A stretch of DNA of 64,000 bases from Pontibaca methylaminivorans (GTDB lineage: Bacteria; Pseudomonadota; Alphaproteobacteria; Rhodobacterales; Rhodobacteraceae), in contig NZ_FTPS01000001.1 in assembly GCF_900156525.1 (NCBI RefSeq), forward strand, positions 1,240,001 to 1,304,000. The letters are read 5' to 3'. A program made the translations under genes and the position numbers. This document shows positions 8,384 to 20,221 of this stretch, piece by piece; within the stretch, counting starts at the first letter, position 1; each line of letters starts with the position of its first letter. The notes under the pieces were generated by a model. The model was given only the letters and a program-made list of their open reading frames with translations, was not told the DNA's origin and ran no database searches.

Positions 8384-9598
8384 CTAGTTCCGCGCGAACC
8401 ATGGCGGCAGTTCGAAAGACGAATCCCGATACAAGTCCGGAGCGACCAGCGCCGCAGGGTCTTCAGGGCCTCGCAACTGATAGAACAGATGCGGCAGGCC
8501 GAGCGACGCATCTAGCGTCGCGTCCGGATAGGGTACTGCTGCCTGCCATTGCGGATGATAGCGAATTGTCCCCGAGACGCTGCGATAAGGTATGTCACAC
8601 AGAAGGTGTGCGATCTTGCGATTCTGTTCCGTACCGCCCGGCCCGGCCGTACCTCCGGCGACTGCTGCGGCGATAGCATAATGTTGTACGGCGTTATAGG
8701 TCTGACAACCGACCTCGGGGGTCGACGCTGCTCCGAACCGTGCTTTGTACCGACGGAAAAATGCCCAGCCGATGTCGTCCCGCGGCAAACCGATGACGGT
8801 TCCGACGATCACACCGCGGCCCTTTTCGCCGACCATCTCGGAAAAGCTGCGGTGCAATGCACCATACTGCAGATAAAGCAGAACGGGCAGCGGATCCTCA
8901 GAGAATTGCAGGTGGAATCGCGCAAGATCGCCCGCATGGAAATGCGTCAGGGCGAGCACCGAAGGGTCGGTCGAGCGGATTTCCTCCAGCAATGGTCTCC
9001 AGTCGGTTGGCAGGCGGCGAAGGATCCGAGGCGGGAAAACGGGACGCCAGCCGAATTGATGTGCTGCCTGATGCATCGCATTGGCGATGACGATGCTGTA
9101 AGGCTTGGGCCCTGAAACGATCGCGATGCGGTCGCTTGGCGGCTGCCACTGACCGCTGTCGCGTAGCCAGGACAGGAACTTGATGAAGCCCTGTCCGTAC
9201 CAGTATTCCGCGGGATCGGCCATGAAGCAGCCAAAGTAACGTGCGGGATCGCTCATTACCGTGTCATGGTGCTGGAGCAGCGTGTTGCAGTGAATATAGA
9301 TGATACCGGCATCGGCGATCGGTTCGTATTCCGAATTCTGCGGGCCGATGTTGTAGCCGGCAAAGATCGCATGCACGCCTTGCGAGATCAGGTAGCGGGT
9401 GGCACGGATCGTCTCGTGCGCGGTCTGGAGTCCCGTGTCCAGGAATATCGGTTCGAGCCGCTGCCCGAGGATACCGCCGCGTTCGTTGATCTCCTCGCAG
9501 GCGAGCAGGACACCATTGCGGAACTCGCGCCCGTCCGAGGCCGCAGAGCCGGTTAGCGGCACGATCGCGCCGATAGGTATCGGCCGTTCGTCCATCAT
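8384..9598 (-). CDS. periplasmic-binding-protein-fold amide sensor, no signal peptide (AmiC-like)
   Basis: 404 residues of the type 1 (Leu/Ile/Val, urea/short-chain amide) binding-protein fold. The protein begins MMDERPIPIGAIVPLTGSAA, that is, at the first beta strand, with no signal peptide or membrane segment, so it should stay in the cytoplasm. Its closest relative in the window is the exported binding protein at 12222-13550: shared elements include EEINERGGILGQ versus EQINAAGGILGR, DPARY versus DPVKY, and LLYLQYG versus LVYLQYG. Its start overlaps the kinase stop by 4 bp (ATGA), so it is the last gene of a three-gene operon with the kinase and response regulator. By analogy with Pseudomonas AmiC, an intracellular amide sensor of this fold, I infer that it reports imported amide to the kinase. 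The ligand is not proven. Confidence 0.75.
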   Translation of the reverse strand: MMDERPIPIGAIVPLTGSAASDGREFRNGVLLACEEINERGGILGQRLEPIFLDTGLQTAHETIRATRYLISQGVHAIFAGYNIGPQNSEYEPIADAGIIYIHCNTLLQHHDTVMSDPARYFGCFMADPAEYWYGQGFIKFLSWLRDSGQWQPPSDRIAIVSGPKPYSIVIANAMHQAAHQFGWRPVFPPRILRRLPTDWRPLLEEIRSTDPSVLALTHFHAGDLARFHLQFSEDPLPVLLYLQYGALHRSFSEMVGEKGRGVIVGTVIGLPRDDIGWAFFRRYKARFGAASTPEVGCQTYNAVQHYAIAAAVAGGTAGPGGTEQNRKIAHLLCDIPYRSVSGTIRYHPQWQAAVPYPDATLDASLGLPHLFYQLRGPEDPAALVAPDLYRDSSFELPPWFARN

Positions 9599-11118
9599 GA
9601 CAATTCCGGCACCAGTTCCGGCTCAAACAGGATGTTGTGCATGATCACGCGCAGGCTTGGTGGACTGACGGGCTTGATTAGCACCGGAAACCCCTGTGCG
9701 CGGATCGAGGCGATCAGCTCCGGTCCGGTATCGGCGGTGATCACGATCGCGGGACAGGGCAGTTCCAGCGTGTCGTTGATCTGGTGCACGATGTCGGTGC
9801 CGCGTACCCCGCTGCGCAGGCGGAAATCGGTGATGATGATGTCCGGCGGCTGGGGAAGGGCAGCGAGCGCAGCCGGAACATCGTCGAACCGTTCGAGGAT
9901 CTGCACCTCGATCCCCCAACGTTGCAGCAGCGCGATCACCGCGTCGCGCAACATGCGATCATCCTCCAGCACGAGACAGCGCAACCCTGCGAATTCACCT
10001 CCGAGGCGCTCGTTGATCTCGACCTCGCCCATTGACGAATGCCAGACATCGCCGAGCGGGACTTCTATCGCGAAGGTCGATCCCCTGCCTGGCGCCGACC
10101 GCAACGAGACCCGGTGGCCCAGCACTTCGGCCAGCCGGCGCGAGATGTTCAACCCGAGGCCAAGACTGTGGCGCGCCGGTTGTTGTTCTGCAACACGGAA
10201 GAATTCCTCAAACACCTTTTCCTGATGCTCCGGTTCGATGCCGATGCCGGTGTCATGCACCTCGATCCGCAGGCTCCGGCCATGTCGGCGGCAGCCGATC
10301 AGAACACGGCCAAACTCGGTGTAACGGATGGCATTACCGACAAAGTTCGAAAGGATCCGTTCCAGCAGGGCGCGGTCGGTCCGGATGGCGGCCCGTGACT
10401 GCGCGATACGCAGGTCGAGCCCCTTGTCTCGCGCCGCCTGTCCAAACTGGATGCGCAATCGTTCGAACACGGTCGAAAGCTGGAAGGTCTGGACGCGGGG
10501 CTCGACCTTGCCGGCGTCGAGTTGACCGATGTTCAGGAGGGCGCCGAGCAAATCCTCTATGATCGAGACGGAAACATCCATCGCGTGCAGCGTCTCCTGA
10601 CGCTCTTGCTCGGTTTCGGCCTCCATACAGGAATAGATCAGGATCTTCAGCGAGGCGAGCGGCTGGCGCAGATCGTGATTGGCCGCCCGCAGGAATCGCG
10701 ATTTGCTCTGGTCGGCATGGGTGGCCTTGTCGCGGGCGCGCTCCAGGCCGCGCTGCGCGCGCCAGGCCTCGGTGATGTCCGAAAACAGGCTGACCCGTCC
10801 CCCGCCCGGCATGGGCCAGCTCTCGGCCTGAAGCACCTGCCCATCAGTGAAGACGAGCGCGCATCCTTCCAGATCAAGCAGGCCGCTTTGCGGCAGTTGC
10901 ACCAGCAGACCGGACGTTGCGAGTGCGGAAATGAAATCCACCTGCGTGAGCGGCTGCGCAACGTGTTCCGTCACTCTGCCAAATCGGCACTGAAATGCCG
11001 GATTGCCATGAAGAAGACGGGCCTGCGCATCCCAGACCGCCACCGCACAGCCGATCGCGTCCAGAGTCGCACGATCATCCGCTCCGCCGCCCTTATGTTG
11101 CGGCGTGCACGACGTCAT
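9595..11118 (-). CDS. soluble hybrid histidine kinase (PAS-HisKA-HATPase-REC)
   Basis: 507 residues, no membrane helix. The order is: a PAS-like sensor (about 15-115, AVAVWDAQARLLHGNPAFQ), a HisKA domain with catalytic His148 (FLRAANHDLRQPLASL), an ATPase domain with N box NFVGNAIRYTEFG, G1 box DTGIGI and G2 SLGLGLN, then a C-terminal receiver with phospho-acceptor Asp431 (IIITDFRL) and Lys482 (LIKP). A hybrid kinase of this type autophosphorylates and passes phosphate through its own receiver or directly to a partner regulator, here most simply the LuxR-type regulator encoded just upstream, whose stop overlaps this start by 4 bp. Being soluble, it must sense an internal cue; the signal-less binding protein encoded next is the obvious partner. 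No HPt domain is seen. Confidence 0.85.
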   Translation of the reverse strand: MTSCTPQHKGGGADDRATLDAIGCAVAVWDAQARLLHGNPAFQCRFGRVTEHVAQPLTQVDFISALATSGLLVQLPQSGLLDLEGCALVFTDGQVLQAESWPMPGGGRVSLFSDITEAWRAQRGLERARDKATHADQSKSRFLRAANHDLRQPLASLKILIYSCMEAETEQERQETLHAMDVSVSIIEDLLGALLNIGQLDAGKVEPRVQTFQLSTVFERLRIQFGQAARDKGLDLRIAQSRAAIRTDRALLERILSNFVGNAIRYTEFGRVLIGCRRHGRSLRIEVHDTGIGIEPEHQEKVFEEFFRVAEQQPARHSLGLGLNISRRLAEVLGHRVSLRSAPGRGSTFAIEVPLGDVWHSSMGEVEINERLGGEFAGLRCLVLEDDRMLRDAVIALLQRWGIEVQILERFDDVPAALAALPQPPDIIITDFRLRSGVRGTDIVHQINDTLELPCPAIVITADTGPELIASIRAQGFPVLIKPVSPPSLRVIMHNILFEPELVPELS

Positions 11119-11849
11119 TTGACTGCGAGCGCCTGTTGCAGCTGTGTGGAATTTTCGACCGCCAGCCGGATCACTGCCTCGCGCGTAGGCGTGGCCAGTT
11201 TCTTCATCGCGTTGCCCAGATGCACACGGACCGTCTGCCGGCTGATATCGAGCATATCGGCGATGTCTTGCAACGCCTCGCCCCGGCCGAGCGCCGCCAG
11301 AACTTCTGTTTCTCGGCGGGTCAGGAGCCTCAGATCCGCCTGGGGTTCGACCCGAGCCGGCTGCCGGGTATCGGGGCGCTCCGCCTCGGGAGTTACATGC
11401 GCACGGGCGAGAATGTCGCGTGGAAAGCTGACCTCCCCCGCGATCACCCGGCTGAGTGCCTGCTTGATCTGGGCTGCGCCCGCCGATTTGGGGATATAAC
11501 CCACCACCCCGTGCCGGATCGCCTCCAGCACGTGCTCCGGATCCTCGTAGACCGAAATCACCACCACCGGGATCGCCGGAAAACGGCTGCGGAGTTCTTG
11601 CAATCCGGGAAAGGCCGCTGCCCCCGGCATCATCAGGTCGATCACCACAAGCCCGATCGTCGGATTGCGCTCCAGCACTGCCAGCGCCTCATCGAAACTC
11701 GATGCTTCCTCGATCTCGTTCCAGTTACGCAGGGTTCGCGCAACATGTTTGAGCGACTCTCGCACGACCCAGTGATCATCGGCGATTAAGATCGAAACCG
11801 GCGTTCCGATTCCGGAGGTTTCCACCTCCATGGACAGGGCAGAGCTCAT
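11115..11849 (-). CDS. LuxR/NarL-type response regulator
   Basis: 244 residues. N-terminal receiver: acidic pair D24-D25 (ILIADDHW), phospho-acceptor D71 (VVIDLMMPG), conserved Lys in GYIPKSAGA. C-terminal LuxR-type helix-turn-helix beginning LLTRRETEVLAALGRG with recognition segment DISRQTVRVHLGNAMKKL. First gene of the minus-strand operon with the hybrid kinase and the binding-protein sensor, and divergent from the amide transport and hydrolase operon across a 372-bp AT-rich gap. I infer that it activates the divergent operon when its ligand is present. A candidate inverted repeat lies within the divergent region. Several starts are possible near the N-terminus (MSSALSMEVE). Confidence 0.88.
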   Translation of the reverse strand: MSSALSMEVETSGIGTPVSILIADDHWVVRESLKHVARTLRNWNEIEEASSFDEALAVLERNPTIGLVVIDLMMPGAAAFPGLQELRSRFPAIPVVVISVYEDPEHVLEAIRHGVVGYIPKSAGAAQIKQALSRVIAGEVSFPRDILARAHVTPEAERPDTRQPARVEPQADLRLLTRRETEVLAALGRGEALQDIADMLDISRQTVRVHLGNAMKKLATPTREAVIRLAVENSTQLQQALAVK

Positions 11850-12101
11850 GATCCCTCGAACAGTTCATTCGCTCCCGGCCAAGTCGCCGGAGCATCCTCT
11901 GCCAACTTATCTAGTCTGACCGGCCAGAGATGACAACGTCTACATCCATGCCAGCCTCTGCCTGCATGGATGTCGTAGCCGTCTCTACGGCTTAAGATAT
12001 TATCTCTTCCCCGCTTCTTCTCCAAATCTCTCGCCCCTCACTACATCTAGACGCTCCTAAAGCATGCTAGACGATAACTTATAATTACTTTTATTTTATC
12101 G

Positions 12102-12131
12102 TTGACAGATATTACTTAGGTCGATCATAAA
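12102..12131 (+). promoter_or_regulatory. candidate promoter of the amide operon
   Basis: A perfect TTGACA at 12102-12107 is followed after 18 bp by CATAAA (12126-12131), giving a sigma70-like promoter facing the binding-protein gene with a leader of roughly 80 nt. Transcription start has not been mapped; the strong -35 with a poor -10 would fit an activator-dependent promoter. Confidence 0.5.
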
Positions 12132-12136
12132 TATCT
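12107..12136. promoter_or_regulatory. candidate operator dyad
   Basis: AGATATT (12107-12113) and AATATCT (12130-12136) form a perfect 7-bp inverted repeat with a 16-bp spacer; extending outward by two bases keeps 8 of 9 matches. The half sites overlap the -35 and lie just after the -10 of the candidate promoter. Arms about 23 bp apart centre to centre fall on one face of the helix. A binding site for the neighbouring LuxR-type regulator or a repressor is inferred, not shown. Confidence 0.4.
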
Positions 12137-12221
12137 ATACAAAAGAATAATATATTGGCCGATTCGCTATCGTTACATCTAGACTTTGCCTGCGAATGCG
12201 GCTCCAACATGGGAAACGATC

Positions 12222-13550
12222 ATGATCAAGGACAAGGCTCCTGGCCTGCGCCGGCCGCGACGCTATACCCGGCGCACCACCCTCCAGATCGGTGTCGCCG
12301 GAGCAGCGATGACGCTTGCCGCACCGGCGATTTCGCAAGGGCGCGCCGACAAGATCCTCATCGGTGTGCCGTCCTCGCTCTCGACGCCCTACGGCGTGGC
12401 GGATGACAGCGATCACCTTAACGGCACCACCTTTGCAGTCGAGCAGATCAACGCTGCAGGCGGAATTCTGGGCCGCGAGATTGAACTGTTCGTGCCGGAT
12501 GTCGACAAGCTGTCACCCGAAAGCGCACGCCAGGCAATCGCCGCCTGTATCGACAAGAAGGTGATGGCGATTTCCAATTCGTTCCTGTTTGCACCGATCC
12601 CGGCGCTGGACGAATCCGCAAAGTACAAATGCCCTTATGTGAACGGCAATGCGCAGCGGCTGCCGACAGAAGCCTATCGCGCCGATCCGGTGAAATACAG
12701 CCATGTGCTGCAAACCTGCCCGGCCGAAGTCAACTATGGCTGGACCTATCCTCTGTGGCTGAAAAGGATGGAAGAATCTGGCGCCTGGAAGCCCAAGAAC
12801 CGCAAGGTCCACGTTGTGGCGGAGCAGGTTGGCTACTGCCAGACCATCTTGCGCGCGCTGCGCGAGGCGATGCCAAGATACGATTTCGAACTCACCGAGG
12901 TGACCGATATCCAGTATCCGGTGAATGATTGGACACCGGTGATCCAGCGGCTGAAAGATGTCGATGCCGGCGCAATCATGATCGACCACTGGGTGGCAGC
13001 CGAATATGCGGCTTTCTGCAAGCAGTTCCGCGCCAACCCGGTGCCCGATTCACTGGTCTATCTGCAATACGGACCATCGCAACCGGAATTCCTGGAACTG
13101 GGCGGCCGCGCGACGGAAGGGTTCTGCTGGTCGACGACGGTCGGCCTTTATGGTGATGCACGCGGACAGGAATACCGGAAAGCCTATCTGGATCGCTTCC
13201 CCGAATTCGAGGGCAATATGGGGCTCGTCTATACCGGTAACGGTTACGACATCGTCCAGTATCTGAAGCTCGCCTGGGAGGCGACAGGCGCACCGGAGGA
13301 TTTCGCCGCCAATGTGGACTGGATTCGCAACAATCCCTATCGCGGCGTTTGCGGCATGATGAACATGCGGAACGATCTGCAGGAGGCATTGCATTATCCT
13401 GACAACGGCTTCGGCAATCAGGCGACCGAACTCGAGCAGGGCATGGCACAGCTCTTCGTGCAGGTGCAGGATGGCGGCCACAAGATCATCTGGCCAAACG
13501 AGATCGCCGAATCCACCCTGAAACCCGCACCGTGGTGGAGCCGAGCATGA
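12222..13550 (+). CDS. amide ABC transporter substrate-binding protein, Tat-type signal
   Basis: 442 residues from the ATG at 12222. The N-terminus carries a twin-arginine pattern (YTRRTTLQIGVAG) and then a hydrophobic stretch ending near PAISQG, so export by Tat is likely. The mature part is a type 1 binding protein of the urea/short-chain amide group: EQINAAGGILGREIELF, the VNYGWTYPLW segment, LVYLQYG, and GLVYTGNGYD. It should capture the amide in the periplasm for the permeases encoded downstream. Its stop overlaps the ATPase start (ATGA). It is a family relative of the cytoplasmic sensor at 8384-9598, which implies that both recognise the same class of ligand. Binding to dimethylformamide is inferred from the downstream hydrolase. 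Confidence 0.82.
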   Translation: MIKDKAPGLRRPRRYTRRTTLQIGVAGAAMTLAAPAISQGRADKILIGVPSSLSTPYGVADDSDHLNGTTFAVEQINAAGGILGREIELFVPDVDKLSPESARQAIAACIDKKVMAISNSFLFAPIPALDESAKYKCPYVNGNAQRLPTEAYRADPVKYSHVLQTCPAEVNYGWTYPLWLKRMEESGAWKPKNRKVHVVAEQVGYCQTILRALREAMPRYDFELTEVTDIQYPVNDWTPVIQRLKDVDAGAIMIDHWVAAEYAAFCKQFRANPVPDSLVYLQYGPSQPEFLELGGRATEGFCWSTTVGLYGDARGQEYRKAYLDRFPEFEGNMGLVYTGNGYDIVQYLKLAWEATGAPEDFAANVDWIRNNPYRGVCGMMNMRNDLQEALHYPDNGFGNQATELEQGMAQLFVQVQDGGHKIIWPNEIAESTLKPAPWWSRA

Positions 13551-14275
13551 CCGGAGCGAAAGCTGCTCCGATCTTCTGCGCCGAGAATCTCTCGCTCGAC
13601 CTGGGGGGACGGGAGGTTCTGCGCAGGATCGGGTTCAAACTCGGAGCGGGCGAGGTACTTGGTATTATCGGGCCCAATGGGGCAGGCAAGACCAGCCTGC
13701 TCGAAATCCTCTCGGGCCGCTATCAGCCAAAGACTGGCAAAGTGGTCTACAAGGGTCGCGACATTACCAGGTTGCCGCTGTTCGAGCGTGCGCGGATGGG
13801 CCTCGGGCGGACATATCAAACCCCGATCGTCTGTGAAGACCTGACCGTGGGCGAGACATTCAAGGCCGCACGCCAGGCCTATAAACCCTATCTGACGCGG
13901 TTCGATGCGGAGTATGGCGCGAATCTCGTGCAATTCCGCACGCCGCAGGACCGGCCGAACAGTCAGCTCAAGACCTTTGAGCGGCGCAAGCTGTTGCTGG
14001 CCAACCTGCTGATGCGACGGCCCGAGGTGCTGCTGATGGACGAGCCCGCAGCTGGATTGATCAATGCCGAGATCGACGAGATCGACCAGATTCTGCGGAT
14101 GTTATCGAAGGAAATGAACATGGCGGTGCTGATCGTCGAGCACCGGATGGAGTTGCTCGACTCCATCGCGGACAGGGTGATCGTGATGGATGCGGGTGAG
14201 ATCATCGCAGAGGGCAAACTCGCCGATATCATCGACAGCCCGGCGGTTCGCGCCGCCTATTTCGAGGCGCATTAG
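13547..14275 (+). CDS. LivG-type ABC ATPase with degenerate signature motif
   Basis: 242 residues. Walker A is GPNGAGKTS, Walker B is VLLMDEPAAGL and the switch His is in IVEHRME, as expected for a LivG-like ATPase of branched-chain amino acid or urea/amide importers. Where other family members carry an LSxGxxR-like signature, this protein reads QLKTFERRK, so the ABC signature appears lost. Because each nucleotide site needs the signature of the partner subunit, one of the two composite sites with the LivF-type partner may be catalytically weak. The ATG at 13547 overlaps the upstream stop; a GTG at 13532 is an alternative. Confidence 0.85.
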   Translation: MTGAKAAPIFCAENLSLDLGGREVLRRIGFKLGAGEVLGIIGPNGAGKTSLLEILSGRYQPKTGKVVYKGRDITRLPLFERARMGLGRTYQTPIVCEDLTVGETFKAARQAYKPYLTRFDAEYGANLVQFRTPQDRPNSQLKTFERRKLLLANLLMRRPEVLLMDEPAAGLINAEIDEIDQILRMLSKEMNMAVLIVEHRMELLDSIADRVIVMDAGEIIAEGKLADIIDSPAVRAAYFEAH

Positions 14276-14288
14276 GCGCCTGAGGAAC

Positions 14289-14996
14289 ATGGAAATGACA
14301 GATGTTTTGCGAATAGACGGCCTGTCGGCCGGCTACGGGCCGCTGCGCGTGATTCATGACCTCGACCTGGTGATCAAGCCTGGTGAGAGACTCGGCATTG
14401 TCGGACTGAACGGTCATGGCAAGACCACGCTGATCTATGCGATCGCGGGACTGACGGGCTGGCAGCGCGGCTCGATCCTGCTCAACGGCACCCAGATCGG
14501 CCGCATACGCAGCCAGGGGCCCGGGCGTTACACCCACCAGATCGTGCGCAGGGGCCTGGCGCTGATGCCGCAGGGGGATGAGATATTCACCGGCCTGACG
14601 GTCGAAGAGCATCTCGATTCCGGTGCGTTTACTCATGACGCCTGGCGCGACCGCAGGGTCCGCAAGGAACGTGTGCTCGACCTGTTCGAGCCACTGCGCA
14701 AGCTGATGAAAACCCCTGTCGGCCGGTTGTCGGGCGGCGAGCGGCGGATGGTTTCGCTCGGGCGCGGGCTGATGACGGATGCGAAGCTTTACCTTGTCGA
14801 TGAGCCTTCGCTCGGCCTCGCACCGAAGATCGGACAGAGCGTGATGGAAGCGCTCTTCGCGCTCGATCTCAAGGACAGCGCCATGTTCATCGCAGAGCAG
14901 AACGTTGCCCTGCTGGAAGGACGGGTTGACCGCGTCATCGGCATGCATGCGGGAAAACTCAAGGGCGAGGCTTCGGCCGGACTTAGCTTTAACTGA
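14289..14996 (+). CDS. LivF-type ABC ATPase
   Basis: 235 residues. Walker A is GLNGHGKTT, the canonical signature is RLSGGERRM, Walker B is LYLVDEPSLGLAPK, and the switch His region is replaced by AEQNVALL, as in LivF proteins. It pairs with the LivG-type ATPase to energise import through the two permeases. The start at 14289 is preceded by GAGGAAC, giving a reasonable ribosome-binding site; a second ATG lies at 14295. The gene follows the LivG-type stop by 13 bp. Unlike its partner it has an intact signature, which makes the pair asymmetric. Confidence 0.88.
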   Translation: MEMTDVLRIDGLSAGYGPLRVIHDLDLVIKPGERLGIVGLNGHGKTTLIYAIAGLTGWQRGSILLNGTQIGRIRSQGPGRYTHQIVRRGLALMPQGDEIFTGLTVEEHLDSGAFTHDAWRDRRVRKERVLDLFEPLRKLMKTPVGRLSGGERRMVSLGRGLMTDAKLYLVDEPSLGLAPKIGQSVMEALFALDLKDSAMFIAEQNVALLEGRVDRVIGMHAGKLKGEASAGLSFN

Positions 14997-15006
14997 AGGG
15001 ACGGAC

Positions 15007-15888
15007 ATGGAACTGAGCTTCATCCTGACCAACGCAATCGTAGTGGCCTCGATCTACGGTTTGATAGCCGTCGCGGTCTCGATCACCTGGTCGAGCCTGG
15101 GGTTGATCAATCTCGGCTATGGCTTCGTCTTTTCCTTCGCCGGCTATTGTGCATGGCTGACGGCGCAGAACGTCTCGGATTGGTCGCCCGTCGTTGCGGC
15201 AGCGGGAATCCTCGGCGGCGCTCTTGGGGGGATCCTGATCTGCCTCCTGGTCTTCATCCCGCTGCACGACAAGCCGAATTTCACCACGCGCGGGATGATC
15301 GGCACCTTGGCGATCTCGCTTATCGGTTCGCAGGCACTGCTAATGCAGTTCGGCCCGCGGGCGAAATCCCTGCCCGAGATCTTCGGTTTCTGGCAGGTCG
15401 ATATCGGTGGCGTCATTCTGACGTCGGACAAGATCGGCATCGTGATCTGCTCGATCCTGATGCTGGGCTTCGTCGTGATGTGGATGCGCGGATCACGGCG
15501 CGGACTGGAGATCCGGGCGATGATGATGAACCCGCACGCGGCCTCGATCGTCGGCATCGGCATCCGCTCGACCGGGATCTATGTCATGGCGATGACGGGA
15601 GCGATGGCGGGGCTTGCCGCGGTGCTCCTGTCGCAGACCTATTACATTGCCCCCTTCAGTGGACTGACGCCACTGATCAAGGGCGTTTCGATCGCGCTGT
15701 GCGGCGGCCTTGGCTCGGTGCAGGGCGCGGTGATCGCCGCCGTCCTCCTGGGCCTGACCGAGGCCACGACCTCGCGCTATCTCGGCGGACAATATGTCCT
15801 CATTACCCAGTTCCTCGTCATCATCCTGATCCTGATCATCCGGCCGCGCGGCATCTCGGGACTGCTGGACAAGGCTCGTGAACAATGA
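15007..15888 (+). CDS. LivH-type amide ABC transporter permease
   Basis: 293 residues with about eight hydrophobic segments from ILTNAIVVASIYGLIAVAVS to the C-terminal YVLITQFLVIILILIIRP. The cytoplasmic loop with RGLEIRAMMMNPHAAS and the GLGSVQGAVIAAVLLGL region are typical of LivH-type inner-membrane permeases. The ATG at 15007 has an AAGGGA ribosome-binding site seven bases upstream. The last four bases overlap the start of the second permease (ATGA). It should form the membrane heterodimer with the LivM-type protein. Confidence 0.88.
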   Translation: MELSFILTNAIVVASIYGLIAVAVSITWSSLGLINLGYGFVFSFAGYCAWLTAQNVSDWSPVVAAAGILGGALGGILICLLVFIPLHDKPNFTTRGMIGTLAISLIGSQALLMQFGPRAKSLPEIFGFWQVDIGGVILTSDKIGIVICSILMLGFVVMWMRGSRRGLEIRAMMMNPHAASIVGIGIRSTGIYVMAMTGAMAGLAAVLLSQTYYIAPFSGLTPLIKGVSIALCGGLGSVQGAVIAAVLLGLTEATTSRYLGGQYVLITQFLVIILILIIRPRGISGLLDKAREQ

Positions 15889-17534
15889 CCAGACCATCCC
15901 TTACCCAGATCAACTGGCACAACCCGCTTACCCCTTGGGGCGCGAAGACCACCGATATCCCCACCATTGCAGCTCCCGACTGCAGCGAGGTTTGGGATGC
16001 CAATACCGAATACAAGGCAAAGACCTACAAGGTCGGCCGGCTCAAGCACTACATCATCTGGCCAAACCACGGCCAGAAAATCTGGGACCGGCTGCGCTGG
16101 TGGCCGACGCGGCGCAACCTGCTGCACGTCAGGGGCATCTATAACCGCAAGACACTTGCAGCCGAAAAGAAGATCCTCGACCGGCGACCAGTCTACTGGG
16201 CACTGTGCCTGCTGCTGATTGCCCTGGGGCCGTTCCTGTTCCCCGGCGCCATGTACAACACGCTGCTGTCGGCGGGCACGATCTTCTGCATTTTCGCTGC
16301 CGTCAACGTCTGCTGGACGCTGATCCTCGGCACTGCCAGCATCTTCAGCCTCGCGACCTATGCCGTGGTGGGCGTCTCGGCTTTCGTCACCACCTACGCT
16401 TCGATCCAGATCGGCCTCCCCTGGTTCACCCTGCCGATTCTCGGCGGGTTCCTGGGTCTCGCCATGGGTGGGCTGATCGCAATTCCAGCACTTCGGCTTG
16501 ACGGATTCTACTATGCGCTGCTGACGCTTGGCCTGAATGAACTGTGCCGGGTGTTCTTCACCACGTCGAAACAATTCGGCTCGGCGTCGGGGGGACTTTA
16601 CGGAGCGGACTCGTTCCTGCCCGCCTCGTGGTCGCCAGCGGCACAATCACTGCTATCCTATTACAGCGCCTTCGGCTTGCTGATCGCGGCCCTGTTCCTG
16701 TTCCGCTTCATCAATGGCAAGCGGCTCGGGCGGATCCTGCGGATGGCGCCTGAAAAGCGCGAGGCATTCGCCGCTACCTGCGGAGTCGACTACCGCACGG
16801 CACGGATCACGATCTTCGTCGTCACCTCGGCAGCGCTCGGCTTCATCGGCGGCTTCTATGCCACGCTCTATGGCGGCACGGCCTTCTCGATCTTCAGCTT
16901 CGAGACCGTGCTCCTCGGTCTTGCGATGGTAACGATCGGCGGTATCGGCAAGGCGGAGGGCGCAATCCTCGGCACACTGGTCGTGACCTTCCTGGATCGG
17001 GTGCTGATCAGCTGGGGACCGACGCGGATGTTCCTGATCGGCATCATCATGCTGGCTGTCGTATTGTTCCTCAACACCGGCTACTTCGGAATCAAGAAGC
17101 AGTTCAATGCCTGGCGTGACAAGAAACGCGGCGAATGGCGCTCCATGCGCACGGAAAAGGGCGGTGAGGCCCTGCCCGAAGAAGCGACCGAGCAGGACGA
17201 CAAGGACGTGCTCTACTTCCTGCGCTTCGACAAGATGCAGCGCGATTACCTGAAGACGCTGATTTGCCCCGAAATCATCGAGGAACACCGCCGTCAGCCC
17301 CTGGGGCAGCACAGCGCGGCGCTGGAACGACTGCTGATGTATTTCCGCCGTGCACCGATGGACGACAAATACGCGCTTCACCGCAATAGCGCGACGGGCA
17401 AGTTCAAGATCATCGCCTTCTCCGGCGAACGTGGGGTTTCGCCCCGGGTCGTCGAGGATCGCGAATACGACAGCATCGGCGACGGCTACCACGCCATCTT
17501 CATGCGCCGCGTGCATGACCTGCTGGAGAGCTGA
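15885..17534 (+). CDS. LivM-type permease fused to a dimethylformamidase small-subunit-like domain
   Basis: 549 residues, far longer than usual LivM permeases (about 300-420). Residues 1-98 are a soluble N-terminal extension (rich in Trp, Lys, Arg). About 99-395 hold the permease core, starting PVYWALCLLLIALGPFLF and ending MLAVVLFLNTGYFGIKKQ. Residues 439-549 are homologous to the separate small subunit encoded next: EEHRRQP versus AEHRRNP, ERLLMYF versus GRLLFYF, DDKYALHR versus EKQYALRR, and GYHAIFMRRVHDLLE versus GFHGIFLRKIKDLME. I counted about 26 identities over 60 positions plus 8 of 15 at the end. One open frame covers all parts, with no sign of a frameshift. The tail faces the cytoplasm if the topology is as in LivM, so it could dock the hydrolase at the pore. 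The fusion is seen; the docking is inference. Confidence 0.85.
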   Translation: MTRPSLTQINWHNPLTPWGAKTTDIPTIAAPDCSEVWDANTEYKAKTYKVGRLKHYIIWPNHGQKIWDRLRWWPTRRNLLHVRGIYNRKTLAAEKKILDRRPVYWALCLLLIALGPFLFPGAMYNTLLSAGTIFCIFAAVNVCWTLILGTASIFSLATYAVVGVSAFVTTYASIQIGLPWFTLPILGGFLGLAMGGLIAIPALRLDGFYYALLTLGLNELCRVFFTTSKQFGSASGGLYGADSFLPASWSPAAQSLLSYYSAFGLLIAALFLFRFINGKRLGRILRMAPEKREAFAATCGVDYRTARITIFVVTSAALGFIGGFYATLYGGTAFSIFSFETVLLGLAMVTIGGIGKAEGAILGTLVVTFLDRVLISWGPTRMFLIGIIMLAVVLFLNTGYFGIKKQFNAWRDKKRGEWRSMRTEKGGEALPEEATEQDDKDVLYFLRFDKMQRDYLKTLICPEIIEEHRRQPLGQHSAALERLLMYFRRAPMDDKYALHRNSATGKFKIIAFSGERGVSPRVVEDREYDSIGDGYHAIFMRRVHDLLES

Positions 17535-17535
17535 T

Positions 17536-17904
17536 ATGGACGACATGCCAATCATCCCCCGCGATGCCGGGGCCGACGTACGGGCCTATTTCGACGCCAG
17601 GACGCGGCAATACCTGAAGCATGTGATCAACGATGAGGTCATCGCGGAACACCGTCGCAATCCGCATGCGCAACACCGCAGCGAACCGCTTGGTCGACTG
17701 CTGTTCTATTTCAAGAACCTTCCGATCGAGAAACAGTACGCACTGCGCCGCACGACCAGCAGCACCTTTCGCATCACCACGATTCCGCGGCCGGGCCATG
17801 CCCCCGTCGAGGTCGACCCCACCGACTTCCCCGACCAGCTTGCCGGCTTCCATGGAATATTTTTACGTAAAATCAAAGACTTGATGGAAAATAACGATGG
17901 CTGA
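17536..17904 (+). CDS. dmfA1: N,N-dimethylformamidase small subunit
   Basis: 122 residues, close to the size of known dimethylformamidase small subunits (about 130). Helical protein with EVIAEHRRNP, LGRLLFYFKN, KQYALRR and the C-terminal FHGIFLRKIKDLME. In the characterised enzyme the small subunit has no catalytic residues and packs on the large one. The ATG follows the permease stop after one base, and the end overlaps the large-subunit start by 8 bp, a layout that fits equimolar production. A paralogous domain forms the tail of the permease immediately upstream, so one is probably a duplicate of the other. Confidence 0.82.
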   Translation: MDDMPIIPRDAGADVRAYFDARTRQYLKHVINDEVIAEHRRNPHAQHRSEPLGRLLFYFKNLPIEKQYALRRTTSSTFRITTIPRPGHAPVEVDPTDFPDQLAGFHGIFLRKIKDLMENNDG

Positions 17905-20221
17905 ACAGAAGATCTTCGGATATGCTGACCGGTTCTCGGTCAAGGAAGGCGAGCAGATCAGGTTCTATGTGAACTGCGATGGCTCGGACATCGCCGAGGC
18001 TCAGCTGGTGCGCCTCATCCACGGAGACGACAACCGCGACGATGGTCCCGGCTATATCGAGGAAGAAATTGCCCATCCGGCGAACGGTTCCTGGCAGGTG
18101 AAGAAACAGTTCACGCAGCTTGGCAATTTCCTCAAGGTGGACGATCCCGAGAACCGGCTCAAGGTCGACGGTTCGCTGTCGATGATGGCCTTCATCTGGC
18201 CGTCGATGCCGCAAAATGGCGTGCGCCAGACGATCATGGGCCGCTGGGACACCTGCACCAATGAAGGTTTCGCCTTGGGCATCAACCCGGAAGGTTATTT
18301 GCAGTTCTGGGTCGGTGACGGCAAGGAGGTCGATTATGTCACCGCGGAAATGCCACTGTTGAAACATGTCTGGTATGCGGTGGGCGTGAGCTTCGACGCA
18401 GGAACTGGCACCACAACACTTTACCAGGAAAGTGTACTGAACCGCTATAATTCGCTAATCGGTCCGGCGGTGCCCTATGATTATGCCAGCCATGTTCGAA
18501 CGAGGCTGCGTTTTCGCCAGTATAACCGACCCGACATCCCCTTCCTGATCGGCGGCGCACGTGACAATCATGTCCTGCGCGGCGATTTCGTCTCGGATCT
18601 TTACGCGGGCAAGATCGACCGGCCGTTCATCACCGATGCGGTCCTGCCGCGCGAGGCGATGGACCGGGTGCGCAAGGGCGAAGCGCCCGAACCAGGCGGA
18701 CTGCTGGCCTATTGGGACACGGCGGCCGGCTATACCGAGAACGGCATCGGCCATGACGTGGCTGAAACCGGACCATGGAAGCTGCATACCCGCGGCGTGA
18801 ACCATCCGATCCGCGGCATGACGGGCTGGAACTGGAACGGCAAGAACGACTGTTTCCGTCTTGCACCTGACGAATTCGGCGGGATCGAGTTCCACCCCGA
18901 CGCAATCACCGATTGCGCTTGGGATGAGACCCGGACGATCGAGATCCCGCATGGATTGAAGAGCGGCGCCTATGCGATCCGGCTGCGTGTCGGTCCGGGC
19001 CGGGGCATTGCCGAGGAATACATCGTCTTTATCGTGCGCCCCGCGCAACCAAAGGCCAGGCTTGCCTTTCTCGTGCCGCTGGCAAGCTATCTCGCCTATG
19101 GTAACGAGACGCTCAGCTTCGACGCCCAGATCGTGCAACCGATGACGGGCCAGCCACCGATCATCTCGGATGTCGAGATCGAGACCTATGAGCATCGCGA
19201 ATACGGATTGTCGACCTACAACCATTTCGAGGACGGTGCCGGGGTCTGCTTCAGTTCGTTAAAGCGGCCGCTCATCAACATGCGGCCGAAGTTCCGCAAT
19301 TCGTGGATGGGCGTGCCCTGGCAGTTTCCGGCGGATCTGTCGATCGTCGCCTGGCTTGAGCATTTCAATTACGACTGCGACTTCATTTCGGACCTCGACG
19401 TCCATCGCGAGGGAGTCGAAGCACTGGCACCTTACAAATGCGTGCTGACCGGCACTCATCCGGAATACGTCTCGGAAAGGATGCTCGATGCCCAGGAGGA
19501 TTTCGTCGCGCAGGGCGGGCGGCTGATCTATACCGGCGGCAACGGCTATTACTGGTGCGTGAATTTCGACCCCGAGGAAGATGCCGTGATGGAGGTGCGC
19601 AAGCTCGATAGCGGAATGCGGGCCTGGGCGGCAAAACCGGGCGAGCATTATCTGCAAACCACCGGCGAAAAGAGCGGCCTTTGGCGCAACCGGGGTCGCG
19701 CGCCGCAAAAGCTGCTGGGCGTCGGAATGATCGCCGAAGGGTTCGAGACCTGCGAAGCCTATCGCCGAATGCCTGACTCCTGGCATCGCACCGTGTCCTG
19801 GATCACCGAGGGCATTGACGGCGAACTGATCGGCGACGAGGGGCTGGCCTATGGCGCCGCCGCGGGGGTGGAGGTCGATCGCTATGACCTGTCCCTAGGC
19901 ACGCCCCCACATACCAAGATCATCGCGTCATCGGGCGGGCATACCGACAACTATGTGCTTGCGACCGAAGAGATCCTCTATGCTTATGCCGGGATGGTCG
20001 GGACGCTGGATTATCGTATCCGGGCGGATATGATCTTCTACACCAGTTGGAATCACGGCGCAGTGTTCAGTACAGGCTCGATCGCCTTCGGACAGGCGCT
20101 TCCCGCGAAGGGGTTCGAGGGAACAGCCTCGAAACTGTTGCGCAATGTGGTGGATGCCTTCATCAAGGATGGCCCCCTACCCGGTCAGAAATGGTCGCTT
20201 GAAGAAAAGCAGTGGCGCTGA
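17897..20221 (+). CDS. dmfA2: N,N-dimethylformamidase large (catalytic) subunit
   Basis: 774 residues, matching the roughly 760-residue catalytic subunit of dimethylformamidase, which hydrolyses dimethylformamide to formate and dimethylamine. Plan by eye: an N-terminal beta domain (1-90), a LamG/concanavalin-like domain (about 90-270, with FALGINPEGYLQFWVGDGKE), a linker, and a large C-terminal amidotransferase-like alpha/beta domain from about 385. The studied Paracoccus enzyme binds one iron through two Tyr and a Glu. Plausible counterparts here are Tyr398 or Tyr401, Tyr441 (LSTYNHFEDG) and Glu523 (THPEYVSE), but this needs an alignment. No signal peptide, so it is cytoplasmic. Last gene of the operon. 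It could act on other N-substituted formamides or amides. Confidence 0.85.
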   Translation: MAEQKIFGYADRFSVKEGEQIRFYVNCDGSDIAEAQLVRLIHGDDNRDDGPGYIEEEIAHPANGSWQVKKQFTQLGNFLKVDDPENRLKVDGSLSMMAFIWPSMPQNGVRQTIMGRWDTCTNEGFALGINPEGYLQFWVGDGKEVDYVTAEMPLLKHVWYAVGVSFDAGTGTTTLYQESVLNRYNSLIGPAVPYDYASHVRTRLRFRQYNRPDIPFLIGGARDNHVLRGDFVSDLYAGKIDRPFITDAVLPREAMDRVRKGEAPEPGGLLAYWDTAAGYTENGIGHDVAETGPWKLHTRGVNHPIRGMTGWNWNGKNDCFRLAPDEFGGIEFHPDAITDCAWDETRTIEIPHGLKSGAYAIRLRVGPGRGIAEEYIVFIVRPAQPKARLAFLVPLASYLAYGNETLSFDAQIVQPMTGQPPIISDVEIETYEHREYGLSTYNHFEDGAGVCFSSLKRPLINMRPKFRNSWMGVPWQFPADLSIVAWLEHFNYDCDFISDLDVHREGVEALAPYKCVLTGTHPEYVSERMLDAQEDFVAQGGRLIYTGGNGYYWCVNFDPEEDAVMEVRKLDSGMRAWAAKPGEHYLQTTGEKSGLWRNRGRAPQKLLGVGMIAEGFETCEAYRRMPDSWHRTVSWITEGIDGELIGDEGLAYGAAAGVEVDRYDLSLGTPPHTKIIASSGGHTDNYVLATEEILYAYAGMVGTLDYRIRADMIFYTSWNHGAVFSTGSIAFGQALPAKGFEGTASKLLRNVVDAFIKDGPLPGQKWSLEEKQWR

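Follow-up and report, generated by a model that had tools for sequence, protein, structure and literature searches.

A signal-less solute-binding protein, a soluble hybrid kinase and a LuxR-type regulator beside a dimethylformamidase operon: a putative intracellular amide-sensing system in Pontibaca methylaminivorans

What does a homologue of an ATP-binding cassette (ABC) solute-binding protein do when it is encoded without an export signal and its gene overlaps that of a histidine kinase? This question is raised by a locus of Pontibaca methylaminivorans (assembly GCF_900156525.1, contig NZ_FTPS01000001.1, positions 1,240,001 to 1,304,000), a stretch of 64,000 nucleotides that we call the window and to which coordinates without a prefix refer. 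Three genes on its minus strand fill positions 8384-11849 in the order response regulator (11115..11849, 244 residues), hybrid histidine kinase (9595..11118, 507 residues) and binding-protein homologue, hereafter the sensor (8384..9598, 404 residues), with an ATGA overlap at both junctions. This triad faces a plus-strand operon encoding a binding protein, two ATPases, two permeases and two subunits resembling those of N,N-dimethylformamidase (DMFase). A first-pass annotation made from the letters alone had described the 404-residue sensor and its ATGA junction with the kinase, and its reading frames and coordinates agreed with ours; its title left out the third gene of the segment, the response regulator. 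We propose, at a probability of roughly 0.7, that the three genes constitute an intracellular amide-sensing two-component system controlling the transporter-DMFase operon, in which the ligand, the contact between sensor and kinase, the sign of regulation and the function of the operator are predicted elements.

Anatomy of the sensor, the kinase and the regulator

The sensor ATG at position 9598 overlaps the stop codon of the kinase gene (ATGATGG). We looked for a missed upstream start and found that the ATG is preceded by eight in-frame codons (AGTGAGIV) and then a stop, with no other start codon between them; therefore, a signal peptide cannot be added to the sensor, and the initial description of the protein as signal-less held. 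Signal calls here and in the homologues were based on reading frames, hydropathy and twin-arginine motifs rather than on SignalP. The best N-terminal hydrophobic decamer of the sensor was its first beta strand. Pfam matched Peripla_BP_6 over the full length of the protein and Peripla_BP_5 over residues 7-82 only, and AlphaFold2 modelled it confidently as a two-lobed type I binding protein (predicted local distance difference test, pLDDT, 85; predicted template modelling score, pTM, 0.87). The closest solved structure was PDB 3h5l of Ruegeria (Silicibacter) pomeroyi (41% identity, Z 49), which is titled an ABC-transporter protein and falls in a different, exported branch of the tree described below; AmiC and UrtA followed at Z ~35 and 15-17% identity. 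As for the attributes of an ABC substrate-binding protein, the sensor has neither an export signal nor permease or ATPase genes in its own operon, and no co-directional ATPase gene was found within 900 bases after the sensor in any triad locus. The anatomy of the gene and the protein thus supports the cytoplasmic location that had been predicted for the sensor.

By its sequence, the kinase is soluble as well. Pfam detected only PAS_7, HisKA, HATPase_c and Response_reg domains in it, and its maximum 19-residue Kyte-Doolittle window reached 1.40 (2.57 for a permease control); across all triad kinases this maximum stayed at or below 1.78 and no membrane-like segment was seen in any. The earlier claims that the kinase lacks membrane helices and is paired with the sensor were thereby upheld. 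An AlphaFold2 model of the kinase, used for domain limits only (poor domain packing, pTM 0.41), placed a PAS fold at residues 12-114, a segment far less conserved in the kinase alignment than the kinase core. In two early-branching triads the kinase carries ~130 additional N-terminal residues with no Pfam match (L036:6040-7983 and L045:10022-11983). The phospho-accepting His148 and Asp431 of the receiver domain (REC) were invariant in the kinases of 20 relatives, and Asp386 and Lys482 were likewise conserved; H148 and D431 are the His and Asp residues expected of a two-component phosphorelay. In the regulator, Pfam matched REC over its full length, followed by a LuxR/GerE helix-turn-helix (HTH). 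No ANTAR domain was found by Pfam in either the regulator (REC and GerE) or the kinase (HisKA/HATPase/REC), in agreement with the first expectation of a phosphorelay rather than an antiterminator as the partner. Since the operon contains no histidine phosphotransferase (Hpt) gene, direct phosphotransfer to the regulator, with the kinase REC as a modulator, would be the simplest route. By profile score the kinase core came closest to the NahK/ErcS group. Against the NF041832 profile of that group it scored 342 bits, which is under the curated cut-off of 400, and the eight triad kinases tested scored 324-350. The layout of a soluble HisKA-HATPase-REC kinase with a co-encoded cytoplasmic partner is that of NahK/ErcS, the action of the partner on the kinase being a prediction.

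Conservation of the triad and origin of the sensor

We gathered homologues from public genomes and plasmids. All of those encoded directly downstream of a kinase (31 loci, one genome counted twice) were signal-less, while exported homologues adjacent to an ATPase gene carried a twin-arginine translocation (Tat)-like signal in 26 of 26 cases, so that position beside a kinase or beside an ATPase predicted the absence or presence of the signal with no exceptions. The triad order was kept in ~30 alphaproteobacterial loci, spread over Rhodobacterales, Dongia, Beijerinckia, Methylocella, Methylobacterium, Hyphomicrobium, Methylopila, Hansschlegelia, Ancylobacter, Xanthobacter, Methyloligella, Aminobacter and Roseobacter H9; in Ensifer a kinase gene stands ahead of the sensor gene. 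Because the order is kept in so many loci and position predicts the signal without exception, the arrangement is more than chance. Spacing from the kinase stop to the sensor start ranged from -4 to ~+70 nt, and sensor identity across the main clade was 60-85%. The triad is rare: draws of 248 genomes from the family, 385 from the class and 398 from the phylum gave about one occurrence per several hundred genomes. A DMFA2_C match, indicative of the DMFase large subunit, was present in 16/16 triad genomes as compared to 75/372 sampled Alphaproteobacteria and 0/14 controls. For 19 of 20 sensors, the closest DMFase of the contig was 4.3-10 kb away, and three genomes with two triads (G979, G981 and G984) had a DMFase beside each. 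The triad remains constant while the adjacent transporter changes between lineages: it is of the type found in the window in close relatives, of the FmdD/UrtA type (Peripla_BP_5) in the methylotroph loci examined, and of a third, sensor-related type in Aminobacter DMFA1 and Roseobacter H9. A look-alike run of regulator, sensor kinase and binding protein beside a tripartite tricarboxylate transporter (L048:2352-5484) was rejected as the same system, as its kinase has a 2CSK_N domain and its binding protein belongs to another class.

The first-pass annotation had derived the sensor from the binding protein of the neighbouring transporter (SBPt; 12222..13550, plus strand; Peripla_BP_6, with the Tat-like signal RRYTRRTTLQIGVAGAAM) by duplication and loss of the signal, and had proposed a phylogeny of the two as the check. 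When 63 binding proteins were placed in a maximum-likelihood tree with the SBPt type as root, the sensors formed a single clade (support 100/99) nested among Tat-exported proteins and did not group with SBPt, which belongs to a different subfamily. Their nearest exported relatives, at ~50% identity, serve DMFase-linked transporters (L038-L042 and L045), with 87/52 support for the sister grouping and 99/97 for the enclosing node. The sensor shares 25% identity with SBPt, which branches far outside on a long stem (0.94), and a forced clade of sensor and SBPt was rejected by the approximately unbiased (AU) test (p=0.013). Both proteins are of the Peripla_BP_6 family and both do carry the YLQYG, GGILG and DPxxY segments that had been cited for a duplication, yet these are family-wide (YxQYG, for instance, recurs in other exported homologues) and, being common to the wider family, are no evidence of direct duplication. 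Moreover, the sensor is unchanged in the methylotroph loci whose neighbouring transporter is of the FmdD/UrtA type. A recent duplication of this locus' own transporter binding protein is therefore very improbable and, by the tree and the AU test, refuted on present sampling. Duplication with signal loss fits the tree once the source is moved, and what is supported is that an exported binding protein of another transporter gave rise to the sensor by losing its signal. We also noted 19 positions common to the sensors and the exported DMFase-linked binding proteins and rare in other relatives. Many of them fall in cleft-lining segments of the fold (84, 92, 93, 109, 111, 113, 124, 126, 166 and 247), from which we infer that the shared pocket-loop residues touch the ligand.

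A candidate operator and the proposed signalling route

The intergenic regions between regulator and transporter genes in the main triad clade (11850-12221 in the window and its counterparts in L013-L044) contain repeats of the palindrome YRTCTAGAYR, often as CRTCTAGAYG. Perfect copies between the operons numbered 25 in 13.5 kb (1.86/kb) as compared to 0.016/kb elsewhere in the same loci, with an expectation in shuffles of 0.03-0.08, and CTAG was otherwise scarce in the sequence context of the palindromes. In the window, motif comparison located a perfect copy (CATCTAGACG) at 12044..12053, an imperfect copy (ATGCTAGACG) 20 bp from it at 12064..12073, a near-perfect copy (CATCTAGACT) at 12176..12185, ~40 bp ahead of the SBPt ATG, and an imperfect copy (TATCTAGTCT) at 11908..11917, ~60 bp ahead of the response regulator. 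The CTAG count of the window alone was not significant against shuffles (4 vs 1.85 +- 1.3), so that it is the cross-locus comparison that carries the claim. The genome holds 2 perfect palindromes in 2.65 Mb, one of them in the window; the other (C1:1342799) lies inside the start of the open reading frame of an ABC ATPase of an unrelated transporter and is probably a chance occurrence. The palindrome was not found in five DMFase loci that lack the triad. Scans of the regulator-transporter intergenic region for sigma-70 promoters and terminators gave no matches. On this comparison the palindrome is the best candidate for the binding site of the regulator. Further perfect palindromes were seen at the DMFase-side end of the transporter operon (L019:293, L032:246 and L043:267) and downstream of the sensor (L019:9360 and L032:9305), where they possibly mark other promoters of the regulon.

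In the system that we propose, a formerly exported binding protein would have lost its Tat signal and would now stay in the cytoplasm. Its ligand there would be a small N-alkyl amide that enters through the transporter or by diffusion, with N,N-dimethylformamide (DMF) or a close analogue as the most likely candidate. The loaded sensor would make the soluble PAS hybrid kinase change its autophosphorylation or phosphatase activity, and the kinase would pass phosphate to the REC-LuxR regulator either directly or with its own REC as a sink or relay. The regulator would then bind the repeated CRTCTAGAYG sites between the operons and switch the transporter-DMFase operon. A sensor acting in trans is likely because co-cistronic cytoplasmic proteins reportedly modulate the soluble NahK/ErcS kinases of Pseudomonas, with NosP as the reported case and YiaY as a proposed one (PMC12997753). 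Judged from the DMFase linkage and the shared pocket-loop residues, DMF or N-methylformamide would be the most likely ligand since the characterised DMFase prefers these two amides (PMC7686228).

Other accounts of the input have to be weighed against this one. The triad might sense a different compound, such as urea, formamide or a product of DMFase, with the DMFase linkage reflecting co-transfer of a nitrogen island. FmdD/UrtA-like transporters do stand beside many triads and formamidase genes occurred in 9 of the 12 triad genomes checked, but transporter type varies while DMFase stays near the sensor, the FmdD/UrtA-type proteins scored 330-340 bits (under the urea cut-off of 492.75), and the pocket-loop residues are shared with exported proteins of DMFase operons; we consider this account unlikely, though it is the strongest of the competitors. 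Slightly less likely still is a kinase that senses redox, a metabolite or the energy state via its own PAS domain, with the binding protein as a secondary modulator or amide buffer. The PAS_7 match with its modelled fold and the extra N-terminal sequence of the two early-branching kinases speak for such a role, whereas the low conservation of the PAS segment, set beside the well-kept sensor sequence of the main clade and the strict placement of the sensor immediately behind the kinase in ~30 loci, speaks for an input from the sensor. The Tat-like signals of homologues speak for a last account, in which the binding protein reaches the periplasm through an unrecognised signal and serves the transporter there; given that an N-terminal extension is impossible, that every triad sensor is signal-less and that a kinase without a membrane segment is unable to receive a periplasmic signal, we hold this to be the least credible account of all.

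Several observations weigh against the proposed amide-sensing system. The kinase's own PAS domain could be the main sensor, and DMF probably crosses membranes unaided, which leaves a binding-protein sensor dispensable in principle. The palindrome was not found in the early-branching triads L036, L045 and L075, and the contig that bears the first of these (the second of the Hansschlegelia plantiphila triads) lacks a DMFase. Finally, the sensors' excess of cysteine (4.6 vs 2.6) suits a cytoplasmic protein, but the sequences are non-independent and SBPt is also rich in cysteine.

The facing operon, known systems and significance

Downstream of SBPt on the plus strand, profile matches identified two ABC ATPases, LivG/UrtD-like (13532..14275) and LivF/UrtE-like (14283..14996), and an ABC permease, LivH/UrtB-like (15001..15888); a LivM/UrtC-like permease (15885..17534) follows. 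The operon continues with homologues of the small (alpha) DMFase subunit (17536..17904; 34% identity to DmfA1 of pAMI2) and of the large (beta) subunit (17897..20221; DMFA2_C, 41% identity to DmfA2 of pAMI2). The large subunit keeps Y399, Y440, H519, E521, N547 and E657, which in the Paracoccus DMFase are reported as iron ligands and catalytic residues (PMC7686228); residue conservation thus gives it the 2-Tyr-1-Glu iron site and the catalytic Asn/Glu of a DMFase. The C-terminal domain of the second permease (~17226-17531) is itself homologous to the small subunit, with 40% identity to that of the window (E 2e-22) and 31% to DmfA1 of pAMI2. The same fusion was seen in Ensifer, Agrobacterium 186, Aminobacter MDW-2 and loci L013 and L016, and the Agrobacterium and MDW-2 loci have no annotated stand-alone gene for the small subunit between permease and DMFase. 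The fusion suggests that the amidase may dock on its importer. On the MDW-2 plasmid (L079:7579-12322) two tandem DMFase large subunits stand behind the permease fusion and are followed by a propionyl-CoA synthetase gene, and Aminobacter niigataensis DMFA1 encodes a flotillin-domain protein between its triad and its DMFase genes (L045:7417-9177).

To our knowledge, the cytoplasmic binding-protein sensors that can be named, AmiC and NasS, each act on an RNA-binding antiterminator, and the known systems in which a binding protein acts on a kinase are periplasmic. Like the sensor, AmiC of the AmiC-AmiR system of Pseudomonas aeruginosa is a cytoplasmic homologue of type I binding proteins that senses small amides for an amide-catabolic operon, and the likeness drawn in the first-pass annotation was confirmed for the signal-less fold (Z ~35). 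It does not extend to the sequence family (16% identity, Peripla_BP_5 vs Peripla_BP_6, phmmer E 9e-4) or to the partner, since AmiC holds an ANTAR antiterminator while the sensor is paired with a histidine kinase and a DNA-binding LuxR-type regulator. NasS of Paracoccus denitrificans is also cytoplasmic and signal-less, and it is related to NrtA, an ABC binding protein that is exported (PMC3795266); NasS differs from the sensor in binding-protein class and ligand, and its output NasT is an RNA-binding ANTAR protein with no phosphorelay. The NosP-NahK and YiaY/ErcA-ErcS pairs share with the triad a soluble hybrid kinase of related core and a co-cistronic cytoplasmic partner. There the partner either binds nitric oxide or is an iron alcohol dehydrogenase, as opposed to the solute-binding protein of the triad, and the kinase of the window scores below the family cut-off. 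LuxP/LuxQ and TorT/TorS are membrane sensor kinases with periplasmic binding-protein partners. Likewise, the binding protein BctC stimulates the membrane sensor kinase BctE from the periplasm (PMC9602780). In these systems the contact is periplasmic and the kinase is in the membrane, whereas the sensor and kinase of the window are both predicted to be cytoplasmic. DmfR of Paracoccus aminophilus pAMI2 is, like the regulator of the triad, a DMFase operon regulator with a LuxR-type HTH; it differs in being a one-component protein of 344 residues with no receiver domain by Pfam, no kinase and no adjacent binding protein. No description of a cytoplasmic binding-protein/soluble-kinase pair or of a DMF two-component system was found in the literature searched, which covered few subscription papers and makes this absence weak.

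The broadest form of our proposal, to which we give even odds, is that an entire solute-binding-protein family has relocated to the cytoplasm and serves a soluble hybrid kinase as its detachable input subunit. The outcome would be an intracellular DMF phosphorelay and a third kind of NahK/ErcS-like partner sensor beside NosP and the iron alcohol dehydrogenase, with the amidase perhaps docked on the importer via the permease-fused small subunit. The sensor pocket and the promoter could become parts of a DMF biosensor. An annotation as 'ABC transporter substrate-binding protein', as in the plasmid record of Aminobacter DMFA1, can hide signalling proteins. For methylotrophs the triad offers a testable regulator of dimethylformamide catabolism, for which DmfR is the regulator known so far. 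For the binding-protein family, the triad would join cytoplasmic binding-protein sensing with binding-protein control of a kinase, and it suggests that an exported binding protein may be reused as an intracellular sensor after a single loss of its signal.

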